This document shows positions 1-26,492 of a stretch of 26,492 nucleotides of DNA, one piece after another. Where the stretch lies: IMG/VR virus record IMGVR_UViG_3300030389_001666, positions 1-26,492 of that record; one strand, 5' to 3'. The DNA is from a virus. Position numbers and translations under genes: made by a program. The notes under the pieces are model-generated. The model was not told where the DNA came from. It did not search any database and saw nothing but the letters and a program-made list of their open reading frames with translations. Every line of letters begins with the position of its first letter. The stretch's first letter is position 1.

Positions 1-444
1 ATCAAGAGAAGTATATCTCGCAACGTAAGCGCATCAGATGAGCTTTCTAAATGCGCTCACTTTGAGCAAGAGGTCAAGGGAGTAATCAAAGGCGTAGAAT
101 TCAGAGGATTTGTCGATGCGATGAGTCAAGACACAATCATCGACCTTAAGACTACTCAAGACGCCTCTCCTGATGGATTTGCTAAGAGCGTTTACAATTT
201 TAGCTATCACTTACAAGCATCTATCTATCTAGAGCTTACGGGAGCGGACAGATATTTCATTCTAGCCGTAGAGAATCAAAGCCCTTACTCGTGTGCTCTT
301 TATGAGCTTAGTCAAGACGCCTTAGATTCTGGTCGTGCGATGCTTGAGAAGGGTATTGCTATGTTTAAAGATTGGGACGGAAGCTATCAAGGATATGAGA
401 AGCACAATTTCCAGAAGTTAGACCTCCCTCGATGGGCTAAGTGA
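1..444 (+). CDS. PD-(D/E)XK exonuclease, 3' part (partial at window edge)
   Basis: The frame is open from base 1 to the TGA at 442-444, so this is the C-terminal 147 codons of a longer gene; the ATG at 121 is internal, not the start. The full-length copy lies at 25760-26470 and has identical residues over the shared part. The fragment contains the nuclease core: GFVDAM, then IIDLKTT (D-x-K) and a QxxxY motif (QASIY), as in RecB/RecE/Cas4-like nucleases. The expected role is 5'-3' resection of phage DNA ends for recombination or replication. It overlaps the next gene by the TGATG junction at 442-446. Confidence 0.9.
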   Translation: MKRSISRNVSASDELSKCAHFEQEVKGVIKGVEFRGFVDAMSQDTIIDLKTTQDASPDGFAKSVYNFSYHLQASIYLELTGADRYFILAVENQSPYSCALYELSQDALDSGRAMLEKGIAMFKDWDGSYQGYEKHNFQKLDLPRWAK

Positions 445-466
445 TGGAGAGACAATTCAAGGGCAT
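1..466. repeat. Terminal repeat, left copy (466 bp, variant)
   Basis: Matches 26027-26492 along its whole length with no gaps. I count 15 substitutions (positions 87, 99, 111, 135, 138, 177, 192, 246, 321, 322, 324, 339, 354, 366, 411), all silent in the exonuclease frame. The overlap shows that the map is circular or circularly permuted (unit about 26,026 bp). The divergence shows that the two ends derive from different variants. Confidence 0.95.
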
Positions 467-1115
467 CTGGATTCCAGCTGAGATATGGCTCAATAAGAAC
501 CTCTCAGCGATTGACAAGATACTTCTAGCTGATATTGACAGCTTCACGGGTAACGGAAAGCTCTTCTACAAGAGCAACGCTACTCTGTCGAGAGAGCTAG
601 GAGTGTCTGAGTCAACCGTTAAGAGAGCTTTTAAGACACTTTTAGAGCAAAACCTTATCCGAGTATCAGGAGGAACTAGAAAACGTCTCTGTGAGGCTTT
701 AAATAGCTCCTATCAGGGTCATTCTGATTCTTATTCGGGTCATAGTGAACCTAGTCAGGGTCAAAATGAACTTTCTGTAGGGTCAAAATGCCCCCCTACT
801 AATACAGAGACTAATCAATCTACTAATCAAATAGACTATCCGTTTGAGGATTCTAGATTCAAGGATGCTTGGAGAGAATGGATTGAAGAGCGCAAAGCAA
901 AACGGATTCGAAAATACACACCGAAAGGAGAGCAAGGTGCGCTTCATTTACTACAAAAGGAAAGCAACAACGATTGCGAGACAGCGATTAAGATGATACA
1001 TAACGCTATCGCTAGAGGATGGCAAGGAATATACCCATTGAAAAATGACAAAAGAAATACAAAGAAAGGCTTCGATAGCTCAGAGTATCGCTCTTATATC
1101 GAGTCCCTCAACTAA
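444..1115 (+). CDS. HTH replication-initiator-like protein (lambda O-like layout)
   Basis: A 223-residue protein starting at the ATG that overlaps the upstream TGA; a GTG at 441 is an alternative. Residues ~1-85 look like a winged-helix domain (ATLSRELGVSESTVKRAFKTL, then a basic wing), of the type in phage replication organizers. Residues ~88-125 are a low-complexity Ser/Gly/Gln/Asn linker, and the remainder is a basic helical domain with W and K/R clusters. The linker is encoded by four direct GGGTCA repeats at 716-790, which look like iterons. This arrangement (N-terminal DNA-binding domain, origin repeats inside the gene, C-terminal interaction domain) parallels lambda O. The role as initiator is inferred; a plain transcription factor is the alternative. 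The 3' end overlaps the next gene by 71 nt. Confidence 0.6.
   Translation: MERQFKGIWIPAEIWLNKNLSAIDKILLADIDSFTGNGKLFYKSNATLSRELGVSESTVKRAFKTLLEQNLIRVSGGTRKRLCEALNSSYQGHSDSYSGHSEPSQGQNELSVGSKCPPTNTETNQSTNQIDYPFEDSRFKDAWREWIEERKAKRIRKYTPKGEQGALHLLQKESNNDCETAIKMIHNAIARGWQGIYPLKNDKRNTKKGFDSSEYRSYIESLN
716..830 (+). repeat. Four iteron-like direct repeats, candidate replication origin
   Basis: The core GGGTCAwwvTG occurs at 716, 737, 758 and 780 (spacings 21, 21, 22). The three downstream-extended cores are GGGTCATTCTGA, GGGTCATAGTGA and GGGTCAAAATGA; the last is GGGTCAAAATGC. The first three are in phase with codons (G-H/Q-S/N), but the fourth is shifted by one nucleotide and encodes different residues, so the DNA motif rather than the peptide is kept. 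Spacing is about two helical turns. A C6 run and an A/T-rich stretch of CTAATC/CTACTAAT repeats follow (791-832), as a duplex-unwinding element might. Origin function is inferred. Confidence 0.5.
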
Positions 1116-1641
1116 TAAATTAACACCAGCTCAAGCCTGGCATAACGGATGCAACGTAAGGAGCGCATTTAAGCACGAACCTCAGCTCGCACACGTCGCT
1201 TTGATGAGCTTGCTTAAGGATGCTATTGAGTATCTAGATTATAACAAGACTATCACAAGTACAAAAGATTTCATCGATGCGGTAGACTACCTCGTCGAGA
1301 CGTTTCCAGTTATGAAGGTCGAAGAATGGAAGGTCATAATGCAAAGGCTTAAAGCTGGACACTATGGCAACCGATACGAAAGGCTTAAGCTACCTGAACT
1401 CGTAGAGATATTTAAGCAATACGAAGGCGAAAGAGCTGAAATGATGGAGAGAGATTTACAGCGACAGAAAGACGAGCCTCCTACCCCCCTAACAGATGAG
1501 CAAAAGCATATCTTTAAGCGGTTAATGAAAGAGCTAGACTTACCAGAGGACGACACAGATGAGCGAGGTCGCTGGAAGTGGATAGAGCACCCTAATTCAG
1601 AAATCGATGACAGCTCAGGAGACAATCAATCTAATCAATAA
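1045..1641 (+). CDS. Unknown protein, possible replication partner of the initiator
   Basis: A 198-residue protein that I do not recognise with certainty. It is mainly helical and charged, with basic and acidic stretches (EGERAEMMERDLQRQKDE near 128-145) and an acidic Ser/Asn-rich tail. It starts at the ATG 1045 inside the previous gene; the next in-frame ATG is 1203 and would remove most of the overlap. Its position directly after the initiator-like gene is where lambda P or DnaC-type helicase loaders sit, but I see no Walker motifs, so a P-like loader is only a positional guess. The family also resembles short uncharacterised Bacteroidetes phage proteins. Its 3' end overlaps the next gene by 35 nt. 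Confidence 0.7.
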   Translation: MTKEIQRKASIAQSIALISSPSTNKLTPAQAWHNGCNVRSAFKHEPQLAHVALMSLLKDAIEYLDYNKTITSTKDFIDAVDYLVETFPVMKVEEWKVIMQRLKAGHYGNRYERLKLPELVEIFKQYEGERAEMMERDLQRQKDEPPTPLTDEQKHIFKRLMKELDLPEDDTDERGRWKWIEHPNSEIDDSSGDNQSNQ

Positions 1642-2008
1642 AAAGAAAGGAACTAAGCTATCGGATAAAGGGCTAGACGTTTTTAGCTCTTACGACGCTG
1701 AGGATGACTTCTACATCGTTGAAATCAAAAATCGACGAGGCTACTATCCGACTAAGATGATAGAAGCTCTTAAGCTATTTACTAACTACCACAAGGCTCA
1801 AAAAATGGGCAAGCATTTTCTGTATATCGTGACAGATGAGTCAGGCTTGTATGTCTTTAATATCAGCAAAGTGATTGACGAGATAATAGACTTAGGAGTC
1901 AAGAAGACCAGACAGCCTTCAACTACAGACTTTGATGATGATAGGAGGATAGTCAAGTACGTCTATTTTATTCCTGAGACGATGTCGATATGCACATTTG
2001 ATTTGTGA
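1607..2008 (+). CDS. Hypothetical protein
   Basis: A 133-residue protein of unknown function with an alternating strand/helix pattern (DFYIVEIKNRRGYYPTKMIEALKLF, then HFLYIVTDESGLYVFNISKV). The E-I-K within the first strand and the later strands are reminiscent of small PD-(D/E)XK-like folds such as holiday-junction or VRR-type nucleases, but the catalytic pattern is too incomplete to claim. It starts at the ATG 1607, overlapping the preceding gene by 35 nt, which suggests translational coupling. It lies in the recombination/replication block just before ninG, which gives a weak hint of a DNA-related role. Confidence 0.7.
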   Translation: MTAQETINLINKKKGTKLSDKGLDVFSSYDAEDDFYIVEIKNRRGYYPTKMIEALKLFTNYHKAQKMGKHFLYIVTDESGLYVFNISKVIDEIIDLGVKKTRQPSTTDFDDDRRIVKYVYFIPETMSICTFDL

Positions 2009-2055
2009 TTAACTTTTTTTAGACAGAGGCTAATGATGTGCGTATATTTTAGCCA
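2009..2055 (+). promoter_or_regulatory. Leader with inverted repeat before ninG-like gene
   Basis: The gap contains GGCTAA at 2028-2033 and its complement TTAGCC at 2049-2054, a 6-bp stem with a 15-nt loop that ends one base before the ATG at 2056. In mRNA this would occlude the start region. A T7 run and TATATTTT (2043-2050) also suggest promoter-like composition. It could be an operator, a translational control hairpin or chance. Confidence 0.3.
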
Positions 2056-2460
2056 ATGGCTACCCCCCGACAGAAACTGATTAAACAGCTAGACAGCATC
2101 TTCTCAAAATTCGTAAGGATGAGAGACGCTGATGATTCTGGGATGGCTACTTGTATCTCTTGCGGAGCTGTTAAAAAATGGAGAGAAGGTGACGCTGGAC
2201 ATTTCATATCTAGAGGAAAAATGAGCACTAGATACGACGAACAAAATGTTCACTTTCAATGTAAAAAATGCAACATCTTCCGCAACGGAGAGCAGTACCT
2301 CTATTCGCTGGCTTTAGATAGAACATACGGAGAGGGGACAGCAGAGAGGATATATTTAGAATCTAACAAGACTAAGAAAATAAGTATCGGAGAGCTGAGG
2401 CGAATGATAAAACACTACACTAGACAAGTTGACGAAATCACAAAGCAGAAAGGCATTTGA
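2056..2460 (+). CDS. ninG: NinG/Rap-like recombination protein
   Basis: A 134-residue protein matching the phage lambda NinG (Rap) family. It has a zinc-finger/HNH-like core with C33-x2-C36, DAGHFISRG at 46-54 (H49), RYDEQNVH at 59-66 and C69-x2-C72-N. Rap is known as a Holliday-junction/D-loop endonuclease that promotes phage recombination, and the motif order CxxCG...GHF..RG...D..NVH.QC..CN is characteristic. It is shorter than lambda Rap (204 aa) and lacks an extra N-terminal region, but its C-terminal helix (IGELRRMIKHYTRQVDEI) is present. Start is the ATG at 2056 behind the inverted repeat described above. It fits with the exonuclease as part of a recombination set. The 3' end overlaps the sigma-like gene by 32 nt. 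Confidence 0.88.
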   Translation: MATPRQKLIKQLDSIFSKFVRMRDADDSGMATCISCGAVKKWREGDAGHFISRGKMSTRYDEQNVHFQCKKCNIFRNGEQYLYSLALDRTYGEGTAERIYLESNKTKKISIGELRRMIKHYTRQVDEITKQKGI

Positions 2461-2920
2461 TAATTGGATAGAATCTAACTATCAAAAGTTAGTGAGTGCT
2501 GCAACAAGCATTCACTCACAGCCGACTGACCTTGTGCACCACACTTATCTCAGAATCATAAAGCTCAAAGGAGTCAAGATTGAGAACGTCTTGATAAATC
2601 CCTTCGGCTATTTTAGAAGGGCTATGTTCATCGAAGCCACCAGAGGAAAGTTTAAGACTGAGTATCTTTTGACCGATGCTCCAGCACATATCCACGTCTC
2701 GGACTATGACATATCTCACGCTCTTTTTTTAGAGAATTTTGAGCTTGCTTTAGACCGATTAAATTGGTTTGATAGGACGATACTAAAGCTCTATTGTGAC
2801 GGATGGAACTTGACGCAAATCGCACGAGAGTCAGGCATCAATCCGAGCACCTTTCACACGTCTCTCCATAGGTCACGAGAGAGACTAAAATCACATTTTT
2901 CAGATTATTATGTTAAATAG
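2429..2920 (+). CDS. Sigma-70-family-like RNA polymerase sigma factor
   Basis: A 163-residue protein with the two-domain plan of small sigma factors. A region-2-like helix contains DLVHHTYLRIIK (34-45), then PFGYFRRAMFIEATRG; a region-4-like HTH at about 110-160 reads DRTILKLYCDGWNLTQIARESGI followed by a recognition helix with RSRERLK. The start is taken as TTG 2429, coupled to the upstream stop, because no good ATG exists until about residue 72. The likely role is redirecting host RNA polymerase to phage promoters, probably those of the structural genes downstream. Its last codons form part of a 17-nt sequence found again at 14538. Alternative: a DNA-binding regulator with sigma-like HTH only. 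Confidence 0.72.
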   Translation: MTKSQSRKAFDNWIESNYQKLVSAATSIHSQPTDLVHHTYLRIIKLKGVKIENVLINPFGYFRRAMFIEATRGKFKTEYLLTDAPAHIHVSDYDISHALFLENFELALDRLNWFDRTILKLYCDGWNLTQIARESGINPSTFHTSLHRSRERLKSHFSDYYVK

Positions 2921-2923
2921 AAA
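2907..2923. repeat. 17-nt repeat, copy 1
   Basis: The sequence ATTATGTTAAATAGAAA is found again exactly, in the same orientation, at 14538-14554. It covers the end of the sigma-like gene (GTT AAA TAG). It is an imperfect palindrome (5 of 8 symmetric pairs). In both places it directly abuts the larger inverted element. It may be an operator or promoter part. Confidence 0.7.
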
Positions 2924-2927
2924 TTAT

Positions 2928-2996
2928 GCTCTGTATTATCAATAAAATTAGGCTTTTCAACGAACTCAAAAAAGTAAGGGTAACATACCAGCGAAA
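2928..2996 (+). repeat. Gapped conserved element, copy A (inverted copy at 14463-14530)
   Basis: Blocks in order: GCTCTGTAT (2928-2936), 12 nt, TAGGCTTTTC (2949-2958), 6 nt, CTCAAAAAAGTAAGGGT (2965-2981), 3 nt, ATACCAGCGAAA (2985-2996). The reverse complement of 14463-14530 has the same blocks with the same or nearly the same spacing (11, 6, 3 nt) and few mismatches. The gap here (2921-3036) has no gene. Function unknown; see findings. Confidence 0.8.
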
Positions 2997-3036
2997 AGAG
3001 ATAATTGATTCTAGACCCCTTAAAATGCGTTAGGCG

Positions 3037-3453
3037 ATGTTTTTTATTTCTACACAAAAGAGAGCAAATCGACTAGAAATCTGTCGCAATTGTGAGCACT
3101 ATATCGACCTAACTAGGAGCTGTGGAACGCTCGGAATCGGGAGCGAAGTGAAGGACGAAAATGACGAATCTGTGAAGCTGTGCGGATGCGTTATGCCGAT
3201 TAAAACTAGACTCAAAATTGCATCGTGCCCCCTTAAAAAATGGACTAGCGAAATCAGTCGAAAAGACATCGACATAATTAAGAGCATACTAAAGGACGTT
3301 GACGGAGTGACATCAATCTCACATCAACAAAATGAGAAGCTGACAGAAATGTGGAACAAGGCTACAGGGAGCAAAAAGAAGGTCAGCTCTTGTAACTCGT
3401 GCGTCCGTAAAATGATAACCGAACTAACACAATTTATCAAAGATGACGAATAA
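3037..3453 (+). CDS. Cysteine-cluster (zinc-binding-like) phage protein
   Basis: A 138-residue protein with an N-terminal metal-binding pattern: C16-R-N-C19 and a further C30, then CGCVMPIKTRLKIASCPLKKW with three Cys, so a zinc ribbon or similar cluster. The string CGCVMPIKTRL...SCPLKKW is common in small uncharacterised proteins of Bacteroidetes phages. A second CNSC pair sits near the C-terminus (about 122-125). Start is the ATG 3037. It is the first gene after the non-coding element A, so it likely heads a transcription unit that runs into the terminase and tail genes. The role is unknown; nucleic-acid binding is a reasonable guess only. Confidence 0.75.
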   Translation: MFFISTQKRANRLEICRNCEHYIDLTRSCGTLGIGSEVKDENDESVKLCGCVMPIKTRLKIASCPLKKWTSEISRKDIDIIKSILKDVDGVTSISHQQNEKLTEMWNKATGSKKKVSSCNSCVRKMITELTQFIKDDE

Positions 3454-3778: not shown

Positions 3779-3780
3779 CG

Positions 3781-4020: not shown

Positions 4021-4072
4021 GATAAGAGAGCGTTATATAGATAAGACAAGACAATCTCAAAGGGATAATAAG

Positions 4073-4447: not shown

Positions 4448-4448
4448 T

Positions 4449-4577
4449 ATGAACGAAGCAATCTATCACGCTCTAGGCATTTGCGGAGAGCACTCACATC
4501 CTAATCTTTTGAACGTATCTCTTATCGTATTGATAGGGTATGTGATAATCAAATCAAGACGCAGAATCAAGGCTTGA
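4449..4577 (+). CDS. Small single-span membrane protein (42 aa)
   Basis: A short ORF (MNEAIYHALG...) from the ATG 4449, one base after the terS stop, to the TGA 4575-4577, which overlaps the TTG start of TerL. Residues ~22-34 (NVSLIVLIGYVII) form one hydrophobic segment followed by a basic tail (KSRRRIKA), predicting a single transmembrane helix with cytoplasmic C-terminus. The tight fit between terS and terL argues that it is translated. Function unknown; similar mini membrane proteins in phages include holin accessories and inner-membrane anchors. Confidence 0.5.
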   Translation: MNEAIYHALGICGEHSHPNLLNVSLIVLIGYVIIKSRRRIKA

Positions 4578-5731
4578 GACAGCCGTCGACATACTATCAC
4601 GCATCAGAATCAGCAGCAAGGATTCAGGTGCATCAGGGAGGCTCTCGTAGTGGGAAGACTTGGAGCTTACTACAGCACGTCATAGACTTCTGTTATCACA
4701 ACGAGGACGCTGGTGCGGTCGTTACTATATGCCGTAAGACATACCCAGCTCTCAGGGCTTCTGTTATGAGGGACTTCTTTACTATCCTAGAGCAACAGGA
4801 AATCTACATCCCCTCACTACACAACAAGTCTCAGAGCACTTATAAGCTCTTCGGGAATGTAGTCGAGTTCATAAGCCTAGACCAAAGCTCTAAGGTCAGA
4901 GGAAGGAAGAGAGACCTCCTCTTTTGTAATGAGGCAAATGAGCTAACTCTTGAGGATTGGAGACAGCTCATTTTAAGAACGACAGGACGCATAATAATCG
5001 ATTTCAACCCCTCAGACCAGTTCCATTGGATATATGATTCTGTCATCCCAAGAGAGGACTCAGACTTCTTTCAAACGACCTACAAAGACAACCCCTTTTT
5101 AGAGCAATCAGTTATCGATGAGATAGAGAGATTCAAGGACGTCGATGAGAACTTCTGGAGGGTCTACGGACTAGGAGAGAAGGGAGTCAATCGTAGTGCT
5201 GTCCTGACGCATTGGAAACAGGTCAAAAGCATCCCTGACGGATTCAAGCTGATGAACTACGGACTAGACTTCGGATATACAAATGACCCGACAGCTATCG
5301 TCGCAATCTACACCGATGGACGAGGCTTTCTGCTAGACGAGATATGCTACGCTACAGGACTCACGAACTCGGCTATCTGTGAGACTATGAGACACGCTGG
5401 TATCAATCGAGACGATGTCATTATCGCTGATTGTGCTGAGCCTAAATCTATCGACGAAATACACGGACACGGATTCAATGTCTTCCCTTGTCGTAAGGGA
5501 GCTGACTCTATTAGGTCGGGTCTTGACTTCCTACGCTCACGACCCTTGCTAATCACAGAGAGAAGCCTTAACGGAATCAAGGAGCTAAGAAATTACAAAT
5601 ACAAGGAGGACAAGAACGGCAATATCTTGAACTCTCCTGTCGATGCCTTTAATCACTTCATCGACGCATCACGCTACGCCATTACATTCAATCAAACAAA
5701 TCCGAACTTCGGCTCATACGCTATCGGGTAA
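4574..5731 (+). CDS. terL: Terminase large subunit (packaging ATPase/nuclease)
   Basis: A 385-residue TerL of the PBSX/Terminase_3 type. The N-terminal ATPase has Walker A GGSRSGKT (22-29) and a Walker B-like LLFCNEANEL. The C-terminal RNase H-like nuclease has acidic residues at D232 (GLDFGYTNDPTA), D286 (IIADCAEP) and D357/D364 (SPVDAFNHFIDASRYA). It pumps genomic DNA into the prohead and cuts the concatemer. Start: TTG at 4574 overlapping the previous TGA; no in-frame ATG lies upstream before a stop (4502), and starting at a later ATG would cut into the ATPase domain. Length is slightly short for the family (about 400-450). Strongly supported. Confidence 0.95.
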   Translation: MRQPSTYYHASESAARIQVHQGGSRSGKTWSLLQHVIDFCYHNEDAGAVVTICRKTYPALRASVMRDFFTILEQQEIYIPSLHNKSQSTYKLFGNVVEFISLDQSSKVRGRKRDLLFCNEANELTLEDWRQLILRTTGRIIIDFNPSDQFHWIYDSVIPREDSDFFQTTYKDNPFLEQSVIDEIERFKDVDENFWRVYGLGEKGVNRSAVLTHWKQVKSIPDGFKLMNYGLDFGYTNDPTAIVAIYTDGRGFLLDEICYATGLTNSAICETMRHAGINRDDVIIADCAEPKSIDEIHGHGFNVFPCRKGADSIRSGLDFLRSRPLLITERSLNGIKELRNYKYKEDKNGNILNSPVDAFNHFIDASRYAITFNQTNPNFGSYAIG

Positions 5732-11950: not shown

Positions 11951-13842
11951 GCAAAAAGCAGACAATGATATTCGGGGTAAAGACCGAAGGAGCAGACGTA
12001 GCAGCAAAAGAAGTCTCTAATGTAGGGAAAGCTGCTGGTGAAAGCTCTAAAGAGGTAGGAGACTTAAACAAGAGCCTTGAGAGTGCAGGCGATTCTGCAG
12101 GCGATGTAGGGAGCAAAGGTAAGCGAGGGATGGGGATGCTCTCTAAAGGTCTTAAAACAGGCGTAGGAGGGCTTAAAACACTTAAAACAGCACTTATCTC
12201 GACGGGAATAGGTGCGCTTGTCGTTGCTGTAGGTGCGCTTGTCACAAATTTTCAGATGTCAGAGAAGTGGAGCGACAGACTAAGAGTAGCGTCGGCAGCT
12301 TTGGGAGGTGTATTCTCAGTCGTTAGCGAAGCTATAGAGTCGTTAGGAGATTTTTTACTTGCAGCTTGGGAAAATCCACAGATAGCAATAGACGCTTTCA
12401 GCGACAGAATGGCAACTATTTGGAGCGTTATCACAGGCGTAGGGTCTCTGATAAAAGAAAGCTTTGTTCTAACCTTACAGACTCTCAAAAAATGGTTTAT
12501 TCAGGCGGGAATTTCAGCGACTGAATTCTTCTCTGCGGGCTTTGCTGATACGTCAGGAATGGAGGCAGCTCTACAGAGCGTTAAGGATGACATAGAGGAG
12601 ACTAAAAACGAAATAGCAGAGGCAGCGAATCAAGTAGCGACGCCATTCGTCCAAGCCTTTAACAAAGGTAAAGATGCTCTAAATCGATTTACAGAATCAG
12701 CTAAGGTCGCAGCTAACGCTTCGATGGCTTTAGAGAGAAGACAGCTGATGCTAGAAAAAGCTGAGCGAAAATTGTCTGTGCAATTTGCTCAAAGTAGACA
12801 AAAGATAGCCGAATACAAGAAAGACTCTGATGACATTACTTTAAGCTTTGAGGAAAGGATTGACGCTGCTGAAAAGGCTGCTGATATTGAGGCAACTTTG
12901 GCAAAAAACAACTTAACAATAGCAGAAGAGCAAGTAGCCATACTTAAACAAAGACAAAGAGAAGGTGACAAAACACTTAAAACAGCGGAGGCTTTAGCTG
13001 AGGCTGAGATAGCTCTTGCTGACGCTCAGATAGAATCTCTCGGAGTTCAGACTGAGCTAATGACTAAAATTAACGGCTTGAAGCTAGAGCAAAAGGCAGC
13101 TGCTCAAGAAGCTGCTGACGCTGAAAAGGCAAGACTTGACGCACAGATTGCTCTACAAATTGAAGCCGATGCTGTTTTGCAAAGCGAGTATTTCAATGCT
13201 GTTGAAGCCGAAAAGAGGAAGTGGGCTGCTCTGATGGAGGAAGCGGGAAAGGGCTCTTTTGAATACTTACAACTAGAGGCAGCTAGAGACAAAAAGCTTG
13301 AGCAAATGAGGTTAGCTCAGGATAAGAAGGATTTAGCTCAAACAAGAGCTGTAAATCAAGCTAAGCTCAAGCTAGCTAATGACGCCTTTGGTGCGCTTAT
13401 GGCTTTGAATAACTCACGAAGCGCAAAAGACGAAGCGACAGCTCGTAAGCAATTTGAAACTAACAAAGCGTTTTCTTATGCTCAGGCTACCATAAACACA
13501 GCTCTAGCAATTTCTGACGCTCTTGCAAAGGACAGCGTAGCTCCGTTCTCTAGATATGCGTCAGCTGCGACTGCGGCAGCTATGGGGTTAGCGCAAGTCT
13601 TAGCTATAAGTAACACACAATTCGACGACTCCGCTTTTAATGTAGATGACGACATACCAGAATCGGGAGGCTCAGATGCTGGTCAAGGGTCAATGGCTAC
13701 AGCAGCCGAAACTGCCCCACAAATAGACTTAGGATTTTTAGGAGAGGGAGCGGGTAACACTATACAAGCCTTTGTCATATCTGAAAACGTAACTAATCAG
13801 CAGCAAGCCGACCAGCTTGTGCAAGAACAAACTGTACTATGA
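11947..13842 (+). CDS. Tape measure protein
   Basis: A 631-residue tape measure. It begins with a coiled-coil/Gly-Ser region (SKEVGDLNKSLESAGDSAGDVGSKGKR), has a hydrophobic core typical of the family (LKTGVGGLKTLKTALISTGIGALVVAVGALV, ~80-108) that is predicted to insert in membranes during DNA delivery, then a long alanine/glutamate-rich coiled coil (~255-460: MALERRQLMLEKAERKLS...AEEQVAILKQRQREG...), and a C-terminal Gly/Asp region. It sets tail length: at roughly 0.15 nm per residue, ~631 residues would give a tail near 95 nm (rule-of-thumb estimate). ATGA overlap with the preceding gene. Strong match to the family by composition and layout. Confidence 0.9.
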   Translation: MSKKQTMIFGVKTEGADVAAKEVSNVGKAAGESSKEVGDLNKSLESAGDSAGDVGSKGKRGMGMLSKGLKTGVGGLKTLKTALISTGIGALVVAVGALVTNFQMSEKWSDRLRVASAALGGVFSVVSEAIESLGDFLLAAWENPQIAIDAFSDRMATIWSVITGVGSLIKESFVLTLQTLKKWFIQAGISATEFFSAGFADTSGMEAALQSVKDDIEETKNEIAEAANQVATPFVQAFNKGKDALNRFTESAKVAANASMALERRQLMLEKAERKLSVQFAQSRQKIAEYKKDSDDITLSFEERIDAAEKAADIEATLAKNNLTIAEEQVAILKQRQREGDKTLKTAEALAEAEIALADAQIESLGVQTELMTKINGLKLEQKAAAQEAADAEKARLDAQIALQIEADAVLQSEYFNAVEAEKRKWAALMEEAGKGSFEYLQLEAARDKKLEQMRLAQDKKDLAQTRAVNQAKLKLANDAFGALMALNNSRSAKDEATARKQFETNKAFSYAQATINTALAISDALAKDSVAPFSRYASAATAAAMGLAQVLAISNTQFDDSAFNVDDDIPESGGSDAGQGSMATAAETAPQIDLGFLGEGAGNTIQAFVISENVTNQQQADQLVQEQTVL

Positions 13843-14417
13843 AAATAATAGAACTTATAATCGACGAGGAAGCTGAGCTATTTGGCATCGATGCTATCTC
13901 GATAGTCGCTAAGCCAGCAATCGAGTCCTCATTTTTAGCTCTTAACGAGCAGAAGCTAACTTTAACCGAAGCCGACCCCGACAAGCGTATCTTGATAGGA
14001 GCAGCTCTCATCCCTGATAAGATGATTTATCGTCACAACGGAGAGGAGGAATTCCACGTCTATTTTTCTAAGAAGACAATCAGGAGAGCGATGGAGTTAT
14101 TTTTCAAATTTGGAAATCAGGGCAACACGACCCTCGAACACGAGCACAAATTAAACGGACTAAATGTCGTCGAGTCGTGGATAGTGGACGACCCTAAAAT
14201 GGACAAATCTCAGCTCTACGGATTGGACGTTCCTAAGGGAACTTGGATGGTATCTGTTAAGGTCGACAACGATGCAATCTGGCAAGATTGGGTCAAGTCG
14301 GACAAGGTAAAAGGCTTCTCGATTGAAGGCTATTTTATAGACAAAATGCAGCAAGAAAATAGGTCAAAATTGATGTCAGAATTGACCGAAATTTTGTCAA
14401 ATCAGGCAAAAACGTAA
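13839..14417 (+). CDS. XkdF-like prohead protease/structural protein
   Basis: A 192-residue protein overlapping the tape measure by ATGA. The order KRILIGAALIPDK..YR...EEFHVYFSKKTIRRAMELFFK...LEHEHKLNGLNVVESWIVDDPKMDKSQLYGLDVPKGTWMVSVKVDNDAIW..WVKS..VKGFSIEGYF matches the 'putative phage serine protease XkdF' family, thought to mature proheads. Possible catalytic residues (H in LEHEHK, S in FSIEGY) are visible. Placing a head-maturation gene after the tape measure but before the scaffold and capsid genes is an unusual order. The last residues (NQAKT) reach the stop at 14417. Confidence 0.82.
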   Translation: MKIIELIIDEEAELFGIDAISIVAKPAIESSFLALNEQKLTLTEADPDKRILIGAALIPDKMIYRHNGEEEFHVYFSKKTIRRAMELFFKFGNQGNTTLEHEHKLNGLNVVESWIVDDPKMDKSQLYGLDVPKGTWMVSVKVDNDAIWQDWVKSDKVKGFSIEGYFIDKMQQENRSKLMSELTEILSNQAKT

Positions 14418-15524: not shown

Positions 15525-16469
15525 ATGGCAAATGCAACAATCAATACGACATACGTCGGGCAGTTAGCTACCCCCTTTGTCGCACCAGCGATTCTTTCCG
15601 CTGATTCTATAGCTAACGGATATATCTCTGTACTAGAGAACGTAAGACACGAAGCTGTCCTTAAGAAGTTCTCAGGTGGGGCTATTGCTGACAGAACTTG
15701 TGAATTCACTACAGCAGCTGGAGCTTTAGTTCTTAGCGACGTTACGCTTACAACTAACCAGCTTCAAGTTAACGAGCAAATCTGTAACAAAGACTTAGCT
15801 CAAGATTGGGCAGCAGCTCAAATGAGAGGTGCGGACGCAGCAGCTCCTAACGCTTATCAGGCTTTCTTATCTCAGTACGTTGCTAAGATTGTCTCTCAGG
15901 ACGTTGAGCGCAATATGTGGAAAGGCAAGTACAATCACTCTGACGGAAGCACAACATCGACTCATCAGTCTTTTGCTGGTATTATGAACAAGTATGTTGC
16001 TGGAGCTGGTACTCACGAGACTCTTAATGTTGGAGCTTGGCAAGGTGGCACGCCAGGAACTACAGCGACGTACATCCTTGACAAGTTAGCTAATCTAACA
16101 GCTGACGCTCCTGACGCTATTGCTGGAGACCCAGATACTAAGCTAATTATGTCTCGCAAGAGTGCTCAGCTTTACTACGAAGCTCTTGCTGCAACTTATA
16201 ACCTTCCATTCCTAAACGATGGCTTAGTAGCTCGCTACAAAGGTTATGAGATTTTGACACCAGCTGGATTCCCTAACGACACAGCTATCTTGACTAAGAT
16301 TGATAACATCTATTTCGGTACTAACGTCCTTACTGATATGATTGAGGCTCGTATGTTAGACCTTACAGGAGTAACAGGCGACGCCGTAACTCGTGTAGCT
16401 ATGTTATTCGACGCTGGCTGTCAAATCGTAGACGAGGCGTCTATGGCTTGCGTAAGACGTTCAGCGTAA
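15525..16469 (+). CDS. Major capsid protein
   Basis: A 314-residue protein with the look of an HK97-fold major capsid: N-terminal segment MANATINTTYVGQLATPFVAPAIL, a long helical spine (LQVNEQICNKDLAQDWAAAQMRG, YQAFLSQYVAKIVSQDVERNMWKG), the AWQGGTPGTT loop and a C-terminal A-domain with LIMSRKSAQLYYEALAATYNLPF and TPAGFPNDTAILTKIDNIYFG. It follows the scaffold gene by 18 nt (leader ending TCTTAAA). Codon choices appear biased to high expression. No delta domain is obvious. Strong call by position and composition, but no motif is uniquely diagnostic. Confidence 0.82.
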   Translation: MANATINTTYVGQLATPFVAPAILSADSIANGYISVLENVRHEAVLKKFSGGAIADRTCEFTTAAGALVLSDVTLTTNQLQVNEQICNKDLAQDWAAAQMRGADAAAPNAYQAFLSQYVAKIVSQDVERNMWKGKYNHSDGSTTSTHQSFAGIMNKYVAGAGTHETLNVGAWQGGTPGTTATYILDKLANLTADAPDAIAGDPDTKLIMSRKSAQLYYEALAATYNLPFLNDGLVARYKGYEILTPAGFPNDTAILTKIDNIYFGTNVLTDMIEARMLDLTGVTGDAVTRVAMLFDAGCQIVDEASMACVRRSA

Positions 16470-19666: not shown

Positions 19667-20221
19667 ATGGCACTAACAGCAGAAATCTTATTTGTAAATC
19701 CTGACTACCTTAAGAGACTAACAAATCTCAACGGCTCAGTCGAGGACTCGTACATCATTCCGAGCGTAATCGTTGTCCAAGACAAAATCATACAGCAGTA
19801 TCTAGGGACAGACCTCTTAAACAAGCTCAAAAGTGACGTAAGTGGAGGAAGCCTATCAGGTAACTATGAGACGTTAATGGACAGCTATGTGAGGAAGGCG
19901 GTTTGCTGGTGGACTATGGTAGACTTAATCCCATCGCTCTACACTAAAATCGACAACGGAGGTCTAGTGATAAGGTCTGCTGAGAACACGACTCCAATCT
20001 CAGAGAATGACCTACACAGAGAAATCGAAAGAGCACGAACTAACGCTCAATTTTACACTGAGAGACTTGTGACTTACTTGTGCAATAACTCAAACCTCTT
20101 TCCAGAATACTCAAGCAACTCAGCTGGCGAAATGACCCCCCAGAGAGAGACTTACAATCAGAACGGAATGACAATATCAGGAGGGAAGGTAACAGAGCTT
20201 AAAAAGTACCTCTTCTCGTGA
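19667..20221 (+). CDS. Head-tail adaptor (DUF6712-like)
   Basis: A 184-residue protein. The segment 'LNGSVEDSYIIPSVIVVQDKIIQQYLGTDLLNKLKSDV', the long helix with DSYVRKAVCWWTMVDLIPSLYTKIDNGGLVIRSAENT and NDLHREIERARTNAQFYTERLVTYLCNN match a helical head-completion/adaptor family common in Bacteroidetes phages (gp6-like fold). It should sit under the portal as an adaptor ring. Starts at ATG 19667, 10 nt after the portal stop. An 11-bp perfect palindrome (TCGTGaCACGA, 20216-20226) straddles its stop codon. Confidence 0.72.
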   Translation: MALTAEILFVNPDYLKRLTNLNGSVEDSYIIPSVIVVQDKIIQQYLGTDLLNKLKSDVSGGSLSGNYETLMDSYVRKAVCWWTMVDLIPSLYTKIDNGGLVIRSAENTTPISENDLHREIERARTNAQFYTERLVTYLCNNSNLFPEYSSNSAGEMTPQRETYNQNGMTISGGKVTELKKYLFS

Positions 20222-20266: not shown

Positions 20267-20476
20267 ATGGACATCGAGATTCAAATAATCCTCAACCTCA
20301 TCCCGATTCTGGGAGCGATGATAGGCGTGTATGTAACCCTGACAAAAGAGGTCGAAAGGCTAAGAGGTAGGATATACTCTCTCGAAGCCGATAGAGACGA
20401 GGTTAAGCTGTTAGTCAAGGAGTGCATAGATGGAATCCAAGAGCTTAAAATCTTACTTGCAAAGAAGGGACTCTAA
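20267..20476 (+). CDS. Membrane-anchored coiled-coil protein, holin-like
   Basis: A 69-residue protein: residues 1-26 form a hydrophobic segment (IEIQIILNLIPILGAMIGVYVTL), followed by a charged coiled-coil (KEVERLRGRIYSLEADRDEVKLLVKECIDGIQELKILL). This N-in membrane anchor with cytoplasmic or periplasmic coiled coil recurs beside endolysins in phages. It overlaps the M15 peptidase gene by one base (20476), so it probably belongs to the lysis cassette. A holin or spanin-accessory role is inferred only. Confidence 0.6.
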   Translation: MDIEIQIILNLIPILGAMIGVYVTLTKEVERLRGRIYSLEADRDEVKLLVKECIDGIQELKILLAKKGL

Positions 20477-20835
20477 TGGAGCTTAAATGGTTTGACATAT
20501 CAGAATTTGACTCGCCTGATTTAGAGGGGTCAGGAGAGATGATGGAGGAGGAAGTCCTTCAAAGGCTAGACGTAGCTCGTGACATATACGGAAGCCCTAT
20601 GATTATATCGTCAGGATTTAGAACGATAGCTCACAACAAAGCCGTCGGAGGCGTAAAAAATAGCTCTCATCTTTTGGGATGGGCTGTAGACATCCGATGC
20701 ACTAACTCACACAGCCGTTTCTTAATGGTCGAAGCCTTGCTCGATGCTGGATTCAATCGGGTAGGCATATCCGACACTTTCATTCACGTCGATTGTGACC
20801 CTGAGAAGACTCCGCTGTTGATATGGACGTATTAA
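20476..20835 (+). CDS. Peptidase M15-like endolysin
   Basis: A 119-residue single-domain protein of the M15 D,D/L-alanyl-D-glutamate peptidase type. Zinc ligands are visible: H65 (SSHLLGW), D72 (GWAVDI) and H104 (FIHVD), in the order SxHxxGxAxD...HxD. It should cleave the peptide stems of peptidoglycan and lyse the host at the end of infection. There is no signal peptide, so export relies on a holin (candidate: 20267-20476). The size fits Peptidase_M15_3 proteins. Start ATG 20476 overlaps the preceding stop. Strong call. Confidence 0.92.
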   Translation: MELKWFDISEFDSPDLEGSGEMMEEEVLQRLDVARDIYGSPMIISSGFRTIAHNKAVGGVKNSSHLLGWAVDIRCTNSHSRFLMVEALLDAGFNRVGISDTFIHVDCDPEKTPLLIWTY

Positions 20836-20842
20836 GCTCTTT

Positions 20843-21771: not shown

Positions 21772-21779
21772 CCTACAAG

Positions 21780-21800: not shown

Positions 21801-21820
21801 TGTGTTAGTTCATTTGATGG

Positions 21821-22224: not shown

Positions 22225-22301
22225 GCAATCTGATGAGCACCTTAATGGTCGAAACGTCGAGAGACGTCATTGTCAAACAAACACAAAAAAACAATTTTAA
22301 G

Positions 22302-23552
22302 ATGTTACAATCAATCACACTTACAGAACTAGAGACAGCGATGCTTAAGAGAATCCAGAATCTAGAAGTCGACGGAATCGGAATGGGCTTTTCAGAGTTC
22401 GACGGCTACAACCTAACACCTCAGGAGAAGGGAGTGCTCAGCTCTCTGATTCAGAAAGGTATCGTTTACGATTCTACAGACGGAGAGGACGACTATCCGA
22501 CTCCTATGTATTGCTCAAGCTCTAAAGCTCCTCGTCTTCTTGATGAGGAGTCTGAGCACCCTAAGCTAGACTTAATCCTACAGATGGACAAAGACACTCT
22601 CAGAGAGTTCTTGCGTAACGCAGAGCAAAGGGTAGCTGAGGAGCTAGTTCGTCGATTCCCTTTCGGTCTTGACGGACAAAATTGGGAGAGAAGTCAGAAG
22701 GCTAAATCTGAGGTAATAAATCAGGTTAAAAAAGAGTTCAACGTAGACCTTCACGACGAGGAGTATCAGGAGCTACAATCAATCATCGACAGAGACGAGT
22801 ACAATCATCGTCTAGAGCTTGTAAGGGACATCTGTCATCTGTCATACAACTACGGATGTAATTGGAGATACGAGAATTTATACAAGGCTAATCGTAAGGC
22901 TTTCAAATGGTCTAAATACTTCACTAAGAAGGACGGCAAATACTACTCAAAAGCTCCTATGTTTGGACTAGAGAACGGAGAGCTAGTAGCTGAAAAGGTC
23001 GCTGGAGGATGGTGGAACGTGACACGCTACGGAAGTCACCTTAACTCACCTGATAGCTTAGTAGACATCATCAGAGATTATCAGGATTCTGTAGAATGGA
23101 GCAAGCGTATTGCTAAGGACGATATTAAGGAGCAAATTGAGCGCATAGGACACACACAGCTTGACGACAAGAGAGGTCTCTCTGATGCTGAGATTGAGCT
23201 GTTGATTTCAGAAGTAGAATCAGAGGGAGCTAAGCAAGAGCTATACACCTTCAAAGATGACAGCGTGAGACCTTTCATAGTAGAGGACGAAAAGACGTAC
23301 TTAAATGACCCTACCTACCTCATCGCTCCGACTACTTATCAGATAGCTCAGCAACGCTTAAAGATGCACAATGAAATCAAGAAGGCTTTCAGTCGTCAGA
23401 GCTACTATCAGAAAGAGCTTGCTAAGATTAACGCTGAGTATAACAGAGCTAAAAAAGAACTAGAGCAGAATCTAGCAATCCTAGAGCAGCTGACAAGCAA
23501 CAAAGCTCAGATTATTGACAGAATCGAATCAGGCGAAATCGTATACAAATAA
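22302..23552 (+). CDS. Large unknown protein with winged-helix-like start
   Basis: A 416-residue protein from ATG 22302 (LQSITLTELETAMLKRIQN). The frame is open from ATG 22233, but 22302 is preferred because an A-rich leader (AAAAAAACAATTTTAAG) precedes it, like that of 21982. The first ~60 residues look like a small helical/winged-helix domain (TELETAMLKRI...GVLSSLIQKGIV). The middle is Trp/Tyr/Asp-rich and predicted helical. The end is a clear coiled coil (RQSYYQKELAKINAEYNRAKKELEQNLAILEQLTSNKAQIIDRIESGE). No catalytic motif is visible. It may be a DNA-associated or replication accessory protein, but this is a guess. Confidence 0.65.
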   Translation: MLQSITLTELETAMLKRIQNLEVDGIGMGFSEFDGYNLTPQEKGVLSSLIQKGIVYDSTDGEDDYPTPMYCSSSKAPRLLDEESEHPKLDLILQMDKDTLREFLRNAEQRVAEELVRRFPFGLDGQNWERSQKAKSEVINQVKKEFNVDLHDEEYQELQSIIDRDEYNHRLELVRDICHLSYNYGCNWRYENLYKANRKAFKWSKYFTKKDGKYYSKAPMFGLENGELVAEKVAGGWWNVTRYGSHLNSPDSLVDIIRDYQDSVEWSKRIAKDDIKEQIERIGHTQLDDKRGLSDAEIELLISEVESEGAKQELYTFKDDSVRPFIVEDEKTYLNDPTYLIAPTTYQIAQQRLKMHNEIKKAFSRQSYYQKELAKINAEYNRAKKELEQNLAILEQLTSNKAQIIDRIESGEIVYK

Positions 23553-23572
23553 CCCCCTTAAATTCTTATCAA

Positions 23573-23833
23573 ATGGATAACGTAATTAAACACATCGAGA
23601 CAAAGATTGAAGAGCTTAACAGAAGTATCGAATACAATCAGAGAGAGCTGAAAATTGCGCAAGAGTTTTTGAACTTTTGCATCGTTAAAGAGAGAGCCGT
23701 TGAGCCAGCACAGCGAGACGTCGATTATCACACTCGTAGAATCAATGAAGCGACCCTTGAGCTAGATGTGTACTACACAGCTCAGGACGCAAAAGCGGAA
23801 GAAAAGCATCTAACATCATACCCTAAGAACTAA
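23573..23833 (+). CDS. Small coiled-coil protein (86 aa)
   Basis: An 86-residue protein with heptad-like helices (HIETKIEELNRSIEYNQRELKIAQEFLNF, then a second helix with NEATLELDVYYTAQDAKAEEKH). No family recognised. Its ATG follows a leader (TAACCCCCTTAAATTCTTATC) that resembles the 14581 leader. It overlaps the start of the next gene by one base (TAATG). Confidence 0.55.
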   Translation: MDNVIKHIETKIEELNRSIEYNQRELKIAQEFLNFCIVKERAVEPAQRDVDYHTRRINEATLELDVYYTAQDAKAEEKHLTSYPKN

Positions 23834-23979
23834 TGAAACCTAAGCTAGAAAGAAAGTTCAATATAGAACTACTATATTTTAACCTTATTAGAGACTTCTA
23901 CACTACTGAAGACTTAAAAAAGATAAGAGCTTTTATCGATGAAACTATTGAGGAAAGAGAAGACGGTCAAATCATATAA
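23833..23979 (+). CDS. Short ORF, charged helical protein (48 aa)
   Basis: MKPKLERKFNIELLYFNLIRD...: a 48-residue ORF from ATG 23833 (overlapping the previous stop) to TAA 23977-23979. It is helical and acidic toward the end (DETIEEREDGQ). Packed tightly between neighbours, so probably a gene. Function unknown. Confidence 0.5.
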   Translation: MKPKLERKFNIELLYFNLIRDFYTTEDLKKIRAFIDETIEEREDGQII

Positions 23980-23991
23980 CACATAGAAAAA

Positions 23992-24150
23992 ATGGACTTT
24001 AATTTTCAAGATTTACTAGACGAGCTTAGCTTAGAAGAGCTAAAGCGATTTAAGCACGCTCTCGGAGCTTATTATGAGCGCAGAGTACGAGAACGCCAGA
24101 AAGACATAGAAGACGCTCAGAACGCCTTAAAACAGCTTTTAGATGACTGA
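23992..24150 (+). CDS. Short ORF, acidic coiled-coil protein (52 aa)
   Basis: From ATG 23992 to TGA 24148-24150: MDFNFQDLLDELSLEELKRFKHALGAYYERRVRERQKDIEDAQNALKQLLDD. A single amphipathic helix with charged heptads. It overlaps the following gene by 8 nt. Together with the two preceding small genes it forms a run of short helical proteins, which are common in phage early regions and often inhibit host processes. No specific role can be assigned. Confidence 0.5.
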   Translation: MDFNFQDLLDELSLEELKRFKHALGAYYERRVRERQKDIEDAQNALKQLLDD

Positions 24151-24367
24151 TTCACTAATCCCCCCTTATATGGACATAAAGAGAGGAGCTGTAACTAAGA
24201 ACGAGCTTGACAAAATCAACACGAAGCTCACTTTCTATCTAGGGTATATTGAGTATCGCTCTAAGAACGCTTGGAGAGGTCAGGATAGCTCTTACATAGA
24301 GACAGACCTACAGAACATTTTAATCAGAATGAGGAACGACTTAATCACTAACGAGTCCCCTTTTTGA
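24143..24367 (+). CDS. Hypothetical protein (74 aa)
   Basis: MTDSLIPPYMDIKRGAVTKNELDKINTKLTFYLGYIEYRSKNAWRGQDSSYIETDLQNILIRMRNDLITNESPF. A 74-residue helical protein without recognised motif. Start ATG 24143 overlaps the previous stop. Its TGA at 24365-24367 overlaps the T-rich start of the non-coding segment. Confidence 0.5.
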   Translation: MTDSLIPPYMDIKRGAVTKNELDKINTKLTFYLGYIEYRSKNAWRGQDSSYIETDLQNILIRMRNDLITNESPF

Positions 24368-24420
24368 TTGTAAGTAAAAATTAGATAATTCGTTTAATAA
24401 TCAGGAGGCTAAACACCTCC
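24361..24420 (+). promoter_or_regulatory. Candidate promoter and leader hairpin of the 24436 gene
   Basis: TTTTTG (24361-24366), 19 nt, then TAATTCG (24386-24392) resembles the TTTG/TAnnTTTG pattern; the same TAAWTCGTTTA is at 14589-14599. Downstream GGAGG (24404-24408) pairs with CCTCC (24416-24420) to form a leader hairpin, followed by CACAAA (24420-24425) 10 nt before the ATG. Confidence 0.4.
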
Positions 24421-24435
24421 ACAAAATCAAATCAG

Positions 24436-24840
24436 ATGGTAGCATCTAAAATCAAAACAATCACCAAGACTAATAGCACTTGGGAAGGTCAATCGGGAAC
24501 GATGTACGACTATGACGTAGAAATGGAGGACGGAGCTAAAGGCGTAGCCTCAAGCACGTCACCAGAATCTCCTCCGTATGGAGAAGGCGACGAGGTAGAG
24601 TACACCTCTAAGACGAATAAGTGGGGCACTAAGCTCTCAATCAGAAGAGCTAACACATTCTCAGGAGGAGGAGGCTTCAAAGCCGACCCAGCACGAGAGA
24701 CGATTATAACTAATTCGTGGGCTATCGGGACGGCTGTGAATATAATGGGAGTCTGTCCAGAAAATACGAGCTACGATGACTATGTCGAGAGTGCTGGGCT
24801 TGTCGCTAAATTATTAATCTACAAACGTGACAACCTATGA
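24436..24840 (+). CDS. OB-fold-like (ssDNA-binding-like) protein
   Basis: A 134-residue protein. The segment 'GTMYDYDVEMEDGAKGVASS', 'GEGDEVEYTSKTNKWGTKLSIRRA' has the strand pattern of a small OB-fold, followed by a flexible FSGGGGFKADPAR and the string 'ETIITNSWAIGTAVNIMGVCPENTSYDDYVESAGLVAKLLIYK' common to uncharacterised replication-block proteins of Bacteroidetes phages. No acidic SSB tail (DDDIPF) at its own C-terminus. A single-stranded DNA-binding role is inferred from the fold-like pattern and its place upstream of the winged-helix protein and exonuclease; confidence is moderate. Overlaps the next gene by ATGA. Confidence 0.5.
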   Translation: MVASKIKTITKTNSTWEGQSGTMYDYDVEMEDGAKGVASSTSPESPPYGEGDEVEYTSKTNKWGTKLSIRRANTFSGGGGFKADPARETIITNSWAIGTAVNIMGVCPENTSYDDYVESAGLVAKLLIYKRDNL

Positions 24841-25238
24841 GCGTAGAAAGTATTAAAGCCTACGTCAATATCGTTGACGAGGTGAAACCTTTAGAGCGCA
24901 AAATTATCGAGCTACTTGCTTCGGGGGGCTATGCCCTCCGACAAGTCTCTCAGAAGCTCTTTATGCCCCTCCAAACAGCCTCAGCTCGTCTGAGCGAGCT
25001 TCACGACAGAGGCATTGTTGAGCAGCGAGGTAGAAAATACTATCTGACGTCAGTCGATAGGATTGAAGAGGTAAAGCAAAACAGACAGAAAATCCGTTTC
25101 GATAAGTGGGTCAAGCTAGGAGAGAAGGAAGGATTCTTTTCTAAGCTCGAAGCCCAAAAGCTAGACGAGTATTTCGATAGGTCGGGAAAGCCCCGACATA
25201 AATCAGAGGACATCCCTCAAGCAAAACTTCCATTTTAA
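24837..25238 (+). CDS. Winged-helix protein with SSB-tail/clamp-motif-like end
   Basis: A 133-residue protein with a winged-helix HTH (KPLERKIIELLASGGYALRQVSQKLFMPLQTASARLSELHDRGIVEQRGRKYYLT, ~17-71), then a charged helix. The C-terminus ends SEDIPQAKLPF. Terminal acidic residues followed by I/L-P-F mimic the C-terminal tip of bacterial SSB (DDDIPF), and QAKLPF also resembles clamp-binding motifs (QxxLxF, as in Hda QLSLPL). So it may recruit host DNA-repair or replication proteins. A transcription-factor role is also possible. It overlaps the previous gene by ATGA. Confidence 0.6.
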   Translation: MSVESIKAYVNIVDEVKPLERKIIELLASGGYALRQVSQKLFMPLQTASARLSELHDRGIVEQRGRKYYLTSVDRIEEVKQNRQKIRFDKWVKLGEKEGFFSKLEAQKLDEYFDRSGKPRHKSEDIPQAKLPF

Positions 25239-25244
25239 GAAAAT

Positions 25245-25472
25245 ATGGCACACATTCAGAACGACTTGAAAAAGTATATCAAAAAGCTCTACGGCACGCA
25301 AGCAAATTGCGCTCGTAGATTAGGCGTGACAACGATGTCCGTCCACAATTGGCACACACGCAACCCTAGAGGGATGCTTAAGTACGCTCCTGAGATTGTA
25401 TCTCAGGTGAATACGACTTGGACTCAGCTATCAGCGGAGGTCTTGTCAAGAGAATCAGAACTAAATCAATAA
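25245..25472 (+). CDS. Cro/HTH-like DNA-binding protein
   Basis: A 75-residue protein with an HTH pattern (GTQANCARRLGVTTMSVHNWHTRNPRGM, ~17-44), typical of small Cro/C1 or YdaS-like regulators. It probably represses or activates neighbouring phage promoters; the 25476-25491 hairpin and the upstream leader sequences are candidate targets. No repressor partner or integrase was found, so lysogeny control is not implied. It starts 6 nt after the preceding stop. Confidence 0.7.
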   Translation: MAHIQNDLKKYIKKLYGTQANCARRLGVTTMSVHNWHTRNPRGMLKYAPEIVSQVNTTWTQLSAEVLSRESELNQ

Positions 25473-25475
25473 CCA

Positions 25476-25491
25476 GAGGGACACCCCCCTC
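25476..25491 (+). promoter_or_regulatory. Leader hairpin before the 25506 gene
   Basis: GAGGG (25476-25480) pairs with CCCTC (25487-25491) around a C-rich loop, followed by CACAAA (25491-25496) 9 nt before the ATG. Same organisation as the 16489 and 24404 leaders. Confidence 0.4.
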
Positions 25492-25505
25492 ACAAATTTC
25501 TAACG

Positions 25506-25736
25506 ATGGCTAAAAAAGCTACACAGCCTCAAGAGGCAAAAGCTCCAAAGAGAGCACAATTAACAATCAAGACTCTACAGATAAAGGACGGAGATTGGAT
25601 TAACACATCTAAAGGATGGCAGCAATCTGTATCAGACGCTTATCGCAATAACGACGGAATCATTTGCGTCGAGATTGCTGATTGGGGAGAGTTTAAGTTT
25701 ATGAGCAACGACCAATCTATCACGATAGAACGCTAA
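25506..25736 (+). CDS. Small basic protein with SH3/OB-like pattern (76 aa)
   Basis: MAKKATQPQEAKAPKRAQLTIKTLQIKDGDWINTSKGWQQSVSDAYRNNDGIICVEIADWGEFKFMSNDQSITIER. A Lys/Ala/Pro-rich basic tail (1-16) then a compact strand-rich domain. No family recognised. The position right upstream of the exonuclease suggests a DNA-related accessory role, possibly binding to nucleic acid through the basic tail. Inference only. Confidence 0.5.
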   Translation: MAKKATQPQEAKAPKRAQLTIKTLQIKDGDWINTSKGWQQSVSDAYRNNDGIICVEIADWGEFKFMSNDQSITIER

Positions 25737-25771
25737 TCAAATGAGAAAAGAATAATCAAATGAGACAAGAA
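25734..25771 (+). repeat. Tandem 19-nt duplication with a 4-codon leader ORF
   Basis: TAATCAAATGAGAAAAGAA (25734-25752) is followed at once by TAATCAAATGAGACAAGAA (25753-25771), one mismatch. The first copy gives ATG AGA AAA GAA TAA (25741-25755), a complete MRKE ORF; the second gives the true exonuclease start (MRQE...). The first copy also overlaps the stop of the previous gene. Confidence 0.85.
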
Positions 25772-26470
25772 CTAACACCACTATCATACAGCTCTCTAAA
25801 GGAGTTTATGAAGTCTCCAGCTCATTTTTTAGCATATAAGAATCGAGAACTTAAGGAGACCCCAGCGATGAGATTCGGGACAGCCGTGCACTCGGCTATC
25901 CTAGAACCTCAGAAATTTATAAATCAATACGATAAGACAGACCTGAGGAGGAATACTAAAGCCTACAAGGAGCTAGATGACTCTAAGCTATGGCTAAGCT
26001 CCTCTGAATGGTCGTCTATCGAAGGAATCAAGAGAAGTATATCTCGCAACGTAAGCGCATCAGATGAGCTTTCTAAATGCGCTCACTTTGAGCAAGAGGT
26101 CAAGGGAGTAATAAAAGGCGTAGAGTTCAGAGGATTCGTCGATGCGATGAGTCAAGACACGATAATCGACCTTAAGACTACTCAAGACGCCTCTCCTGAT
26201 GGCTTTGCTAAGAGCGTATACAATTTTAGCTATCACTTACAAGCATCTATCTATCTAGAGCTTACGGGAGCAGACAGATATTTCATTCTAGCCGTAGAGA
26301 ATCAAAGCCCTTACTCGTGTGCTCTTTATGAGCTTAGTCAAGACGCTCTTGATTCTGGTCGTGCTATGCTTGAGAAGGGGATTGCTATGTTCAAAGATTG
26401 GGACGGAAGCTATCAAGGATATGAGAAGCACAATTTTCAGAAGTTAGACCTCCCTCGATGGGCTAAGTGA
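25760..26470 (+). CDS. PD-(D/E)XK exonuclease (DUF3799/RecE-like), complete copy
   Basis: A 236-residue protein. A helical lead (LSYSSLKEFMKSPAHFLAYKN...FGTAVHSAILEP, with H44) is followed by the nuclease core: D128 in GFVDAM, D137-x-K139 in DLKTT, and Q161-x3-Y165 in YHLQASIYLE. This order (GTxxH, then GxxD, then (D/E)xK, then QxxxY) is that of RecB/RecE-like phage exonucleases. It would produce 3' single strands for recombination with a partner such as an annealing or ssDNA-binding protein; the nearby OB-fold-like protein at 24436 is a candidate. The start ATG 25760 follows a duplicate leader (25734-25771). It shares all residues with the partial copy at 1-444. The final codon overlaps the next gene's ATG. 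Confidence 0.9.
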   Translation: MRQELTPLSYSSLKEFMKSPAHFLAYKNRELKETPAMRFGTAVHSAILEPQKFINQYDKTDLRRNTKAYKELDDSKLWLSSSEWSSIEGIKRSISRNVSASDELSKCAHFEQEVKGVIKGVEFRGFVDAMSQDTIIDLKTTQDASPDGFAKSVYNFSYHLQASIYLELTGADRYFILAVENQSPYSCALYELSQDALDSGRAMLEKGIAMFKDWDGSYQGYEKHNFQKLDLPRWAK

Positions 26471-26492
26471 TGGAGAGACAATTCAAGGGCAT
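26027..26492. repeat. Terminal repeat, right copy (466 bp, variant)
   Basis: Same 466 bases as 1-466, gap-free, with 15 silent differences. At 26161-26165 the coupled changes ACA-ATC to ACG-ATA avoid creating GATC. It holds the exonuclease C-terminal part and the first codons of the initiator gene. Confidence 0.95.
26470..26492 (+). CDS. Start of the HTH initiator-like gene (partial, second copy)
   Basis: ATG 26470 overlaps the exonuclease stop, exactly as at 444. Only seven codons (MERQFKG) are in the window; identical to the start of the 444-1115 gene. It marks where the circular map closes. Confidence 0.8.

Follow-up and report, generated by a model that had tools for sequence, protein, structure and literature searches.

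Type II site elimination has been described for dsDNA phages, in which palindromic words of 4–6 bp fall to an observed/expected ratio <0.1 (Rusinov et al. 2018, PMC6286503). It concerns almost only the sites of orthodox Type II systems (<0.5% for other types) and is commoner in non-temperate phages (PMC6286503). A loss of GATC ascribed to mismatch repair is reported for phage phiX174 (Deschavanne and Radman 1991, as cited in PMC5014478). Among the restriction enzymes, EcoRII (CCWGG) needs several sites for good cutting (PMC4081073). In PMC548270, Sau3AI (GATC) is classed as Type IIE and said to contain two MutH-like domains; a paper cited there reports its dimerisation on DNA, with loop formation. 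In the Inhavirus phages P12024S and P12024L of Nonlabens, GGCC is absent and CCGG occurs once in 22 kb.

The DNA analysed here, referred to as the window, is an IMG/VR virus contig of 26,492 bp from a metagenome assembly. As in the phages of Rusinov et al. (2018), the lost words are palindromes of 4–6 bp with observed/expected <0.1, and neither a sign of lysogeny nor an own methyltransferase was found, which matches the published traits of site-eliminating phages (PMC6286503). In contrast to these phages, the window loses about a dozen words at once within 26 kb, and its sister phage reveals selection continuing after the split. It shares the lack of GATC with phiX174 but misses many other words too. 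The gene order (capsid, portal, M15 peptidase, phosphoesterase) is that of P12024S and P12024L, whereas the capsid is only 23.5% identical and the Nonlabens phages have kept 50 GATC and 42 CATG in 22 kb. Relatives of the window with partial GATC depletion carry spaced GATCs, as two-site cutting by a Type IIE enzyme would favour; however, this dispersal is seen in the relatives from sequence only, and the window itself has no GATC left. The avoidance is an extreme case of a known kind; the rule for GATC spacing may be new.

The window is a near-complete tailed-phage genome. The features identified are as follows.

1..466, no strand, end repeat copy 1, matches 26027-26492
4574..5731, + strand, terminase large subunit (Pfam Terminase_3 and Terminase_3C)
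15525..16469, + strand, probable major capsid protein (phrog_11320, function unknown; 23.5% identity to a protein of Nonlabens phage P12024S)
17551..19656, + strand, portal protein (phrog_33693, E 4e-78)
20476..20835, + strand, M15 peptidase, probable lysis enzyme (Pfam Peptidase_M15_3)
26027..26492, no strand, end repeat copy 2, matches 1-466

The two end copies (466 bp) differ by 15 mismatches, which rules out an exact terminal repeat; the full genome is probably a near-closed circle of 26,026 bp. The contig joins two strain variants, and the forbidden sites are absent from both end copies. The capsid role of the 15525..16469 product is probable from its position, the similar P12024S protein being encoded just upstream of the P12024S portal gene. 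Profile searches also indicated a tape-measure-like protein, a NinG-like protein and a sigma-like factor, but no integrase; many genes are without known function. No tRNA genes were found in the window, and a search for methyltransferase domains (N6_N4, D12, C5) was negative. The PHROG label "DNA methyltransferase" at 13839-14417 was set aside as it looks wrong, this stretch being common to head-protease families.

The host is probably a member of the Bacteroidota, because of the terminase relatives and the capsid matches to Nonlabens phages, and perhaps marine. The terminase is 38% identical to those of Bacteroides phages, and its best relatives are loci in Bacteroidales metagenome bins (about 52%), which places the host at the phylum level only. 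The seawater phages P12024S and P12024L are the only known-phage matches of the probable capsid. A comparison of the window DNA with three genomes yielded a sole match of 40 bp (85%, E 0.003), which was judged to be due to chance.

Missing words and their specificity

Five tetramers are absent from the window. Their expected numbers are given below for base composition, a Markov model, synonymous-codon shuffles over 38 reading frames, and the strictest null, a codon shuffle in which the dinucleotides at codon junctions are preserved as well (in brackets, the minimum over 120 shuffles of the strictest null).

GATC: 0 observed; 97, 137, 99 and 106 expected (87)
CATG: 0 observed; 97, 54, 46 and 32 expected (22)
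GGCC: 0 observed; 58, 26, 29 and 20 expected (10)
CCGG: 0 observed; 58, 19, 18 and 8.5 expected (3)
CGCG: 0 observed; 58, 25, 34 and 20.5 expected (13)

This absence is beyond chance. Under the Markov model, all five tetramers fall within the definition of site elimination (observed/expected <0.1, expected >15); the expectation for CCGG falls from 19 to 8.5 under the strictest null. An earlier note on this DNA, made from the letters alone, had described GATC, CATG and GGCC as wholly absent and CCGG, which was checked less strictly, as seemingly absent too. All four counts are indeed zero, and its expectations of about 100, 100 and 60 agree with those from base composition (97, 97 and 58). The comparison with a Markov model that it had proposed gave 0/137, 0/54 and 0/26 for GATC, CATG and GGCC, respectively. 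The tetramers it had named as present do occur (GTAC 52, TCGA 123, AGCT 306, GCGC 28). Its claim of absence was too modest, since CGCG and the words of 5–6 bp had been overlooked.

Zero counts were also obtained for the following words, with expectations from the strictest null: GGWCC (7 expected), GGNNCC (19), CCNNGG (20), RGCGCY (16), YACGTR (15), CYCGRG (12), GAGCTC (15) and GATATC (8). Two further words occur once each:

20056..20060, no strand, sole CASTG in the window (18 expected)
13573..13577, no strand, sole GCSGC in the window (17 expected)

Some of the lost words overlap one another in sequence, and some are extremes picked from many words tested; a stepwise analysis discounting the overlaps retained about ten separate signals. 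GTAC, TCGA, AGCT, CTAG and ACGT were near or above expectation. Window-wide, AGCT is in excess (301 vs 255 expected, strictest null) and AGCTC more so, with GAGCTC at zero. The asymmetric words ACTGG, AACCA, CCTGC and CTGAAG are low throughout the window, which could reflect other restriction sites or a codon-context bias.

The lost words are short palindromes of 4–6 bp, and more widely spaced versions of their half-sites are near normal. Loss is seen at gap 0 for the half-sites GA..TC and CG..CG and at gaps 0–1 for CA..TG; CC..GG and GG..CC are depleted at gaps 0–2 and near normal from gap 3 onwards. Of 43 six-base palindromes that contain no lost tetramer, 12 have zero counts (1.2 expected). 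Zeros are likewise in excess among matched non-palindromic six-mers (6/40, 0.5 expected), so the six-base signal need not be all restriction, and part of it may have other causes.

Codon choice deviates only at positions where a site would otherwise arise. Asp ahead of C is always written GAC (48/48; GAT 0), and Ile after G is ATA (77) or ATT (62) but never ATC (0/139), which is favoured elsewhere; both codon preferences had been read correctly in the earlier note. Likewise, no internal ATG codon is preceded by C (0/139).

The sister phage and the phage families

The sister phage is represented by contigs L001 and L151, joined by 1,339 identical overlapping bases; in the blocks that align, its DNA is about 73–87% identical to that of the window. 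The two differ by 3,943 substitutions in 21,109 aligned bases. When distributed randomly over the same bases and codon phases, these substitutions are expected to create 56 GATC, 43 CATG, 30 GGCC, 27 CCGG and 24 CGCG; one new CCGG and none of the other four were seen. Since almost no sites were created, selection acted after the split of the window and its sister. The whole sister contigs contain three CCGG. The sister phage also carries a gene for a 229-aa DNA methyltransferase (L001:3668-4357), which shares up to 55% identity with methyltransferases of other phages; the window is devoid of such a gene at the matching place, near 1610-1670.

The window terminase served as query for relatives, and a terminase tree of 53 contigs was built. 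Elimination changed repeatedly on this tree, at least 12 times for CCWGG, 7 times each for GATC and CTAG, 6 times each for GGWCC, RGCGCY and CCGG, 4 times for CATG and 3 times for GGCC, and GCGC, GTAC, TCGA, AGCT and TGCA were never eliminated. Five relatives with about 75% terminase identity to the window (L007, L009-L012) have normal GATC and CATG. The shifting set of missing words is as expected if it tracks the enzymes of the hosts. GC-richer relatives (L014, L030, L034, L040, L044, L059 and others) have lost CTAG and mostly CCWGG, not the set of the window. A second family was retrieved with the portal of a Nonlabens phage as query; in two of its P12024-like members (L313, L318), GATC, CATG and GGCC are absent or nearly so. 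Among the loci compared, the number of eliminated tetramers is highest in the window and its sister contig L001 (five each), and nearly all lambda-like prophages compared have none. Hardly any independent contigs came from additional scans with tail proteins of the family and with a lambda terminase, and a third family comprised too few to be tested.

Type II restriction as the probable cause, and rival explanations

A probably lytic tailed phage of Bacteroidota that escapes host Type II restriction, with no or almost no sites left for about a dozen specificities, is very likely the explanation for these observations. The shifting lost palindromes and the lack of a detectable protecting methyltransferase fit an escape from many Type II systems. 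Infecting DNA with a site would be cut by the host enzyme before it could be methylated or replicated. Because the specificities outnumber what one strain usually encodes, many host strains have probably exerted the pressure over time; of the bacteria listed in REBASE, at least 87% possess no more than three Type II enzymes (PMC7560954). Strong selection on 4-bp sites by several host restriction systems had been suggested in the earlier note, and the palindromes, the codons, the sister phage and the family support it. Methylation at CGCG, GAGCTC, CYCGRG, GATC, GGCC and CCWGG has been reported for genomes of marine tailed phages (PMC9516812), which independently suggests that enzymes for words of this type are active in the sea.

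Mismatch repair, acting through a MutH-like nuclease that cuts GATC when unmethylated or through a benefit to a phage that evades repair, is considered very unlikely. Such a counterselection of GATC has been proposed for enterobacteriophages, with phiX174 as a phage without GATC (PMC5014478), but it touches this word only and leaves CATG, GGCC, CCGG, CGCG and the longer words unexplained; at least four tetramers other than GATC are at zero in the window. Furthermore, in 196 genomes of the order of Neptunitalea, a flavobacterial prophage carrier, MutH-domain proteins occur in six, and in each of the six the Sau3AI family model identifies them as Sau3AI-type restriction enzymes. Which words are dangerous can be read from the site pattern, not whether the modified or the unmodified form is cut, and the host might accordingly methylate the words and a Type IV-like nuclease cut the methylated phage DNA. 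This modification-dependent danger is very unlikely given that published elimination is nearly confined to orthodox Type II sites, at <0.5% for other types (PMC6286503), and that a host methylating its own words would itself risk attack by such a nuclease.

A mutation bias, or a phage copying the base usage of its host, would be in line with the strong genome signature, e.g., the excess of AGCT and AGCTC. It is nevertheless highly improbable: many sites are still expected when codon use and junction dinucleotides are kept, the zeros are exact while the neighbours GATG and GATT are common, and the relatives with about 75% terminase identity are normal for GATC and CATG. The contig being a metagenome assembly, an artefact of assembly or library preparation, such as a restriction digest, was also considered. 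This is hardly conceivable, as relatives from other samples (L004, L005) have the same zeros, whereas L149, from the sample of L004, contains 14 GATC and 29 CATG; moreover, the reading frames are undamaged, and the missing words, about a dozen, are unrelated to one another.

GATC spacing in partially depleted relatives

An even spacing of the remaining GATCs was first seen in a few contigs, after which all loci were tested, with contigs sharing sequence collapsed beforehand. The variation of the gaps was below random in 28 of 31 loci with partial GATC depletion (combined z -8.2) and not in seven undepleted loci (z -0.4). In the 31 loci, which include L152, L013, L209, L179, L008 and 26 other relatives, 103 GATC pairs were found at ≤300 bp, compared to 204 expected (z -7.4), a result stable to leaving out any locus. 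The pair-distance ratios were 0.34–0.65 below 300 bp, mildly low up to 600 bp and 1 beyond, and no long-range order was detected in the GATC pair distances. The second family gave a weaker signal (gap test z -2.1, 8/15 below random; close-pair test in partially depleted members z -2.3), which is only a partly independent replication, because the 300-bp cut was set after the curve had been seen and the second family was part of that curve.

Other partially depleted words did not show the same spacing (CATG, 24 loci; CCGG, 16; GGWCC, 10). In a ranking of all tetramers for spacing, GATC came top, followed by CCAG/CTGG, a part of CCWGG. The flanks of 226 GATC sites share no bases, which rules out that the spacing belongs to a longer motif. 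In prophage-like loci from bacterial genomes, GATC regularity was not among the leading words.

The data would fit a danger that lies in close GATC pairs. It is about as likely as not that the remaining GATCs avoid each other at distances under about 300 bp because a Sau3AI-like attacker, with its two MutH-type domains, has to bridge a pair of sites. Escape might then proceed in two steps, in which the sites would be spread out and later all be lost, as in the window. Sau3AI-family proteins are encoded in 6 of the 196 genomes of the order of Neptunitalea, none of the six being linked to a phage studied here, and a DpnII-family match over the cut-off was obtained in one. Both Sau3AI-family genes examined are strong matches to the Sau3AI model, and one of them adjoins a cytosine methyltransferase gene.

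The list of missing words is a readout of the enzymes an uncultured phage has faced, obtained without the host in hand, and the shifting lists within one phage family show how the pressure differs from lineage to lineage. Should the GATC spacing rule hold, one-site and two-site restriction in nature could be told apart from sequence alone, and the rule would bear on the question of why enzymes requiring two sites exist.
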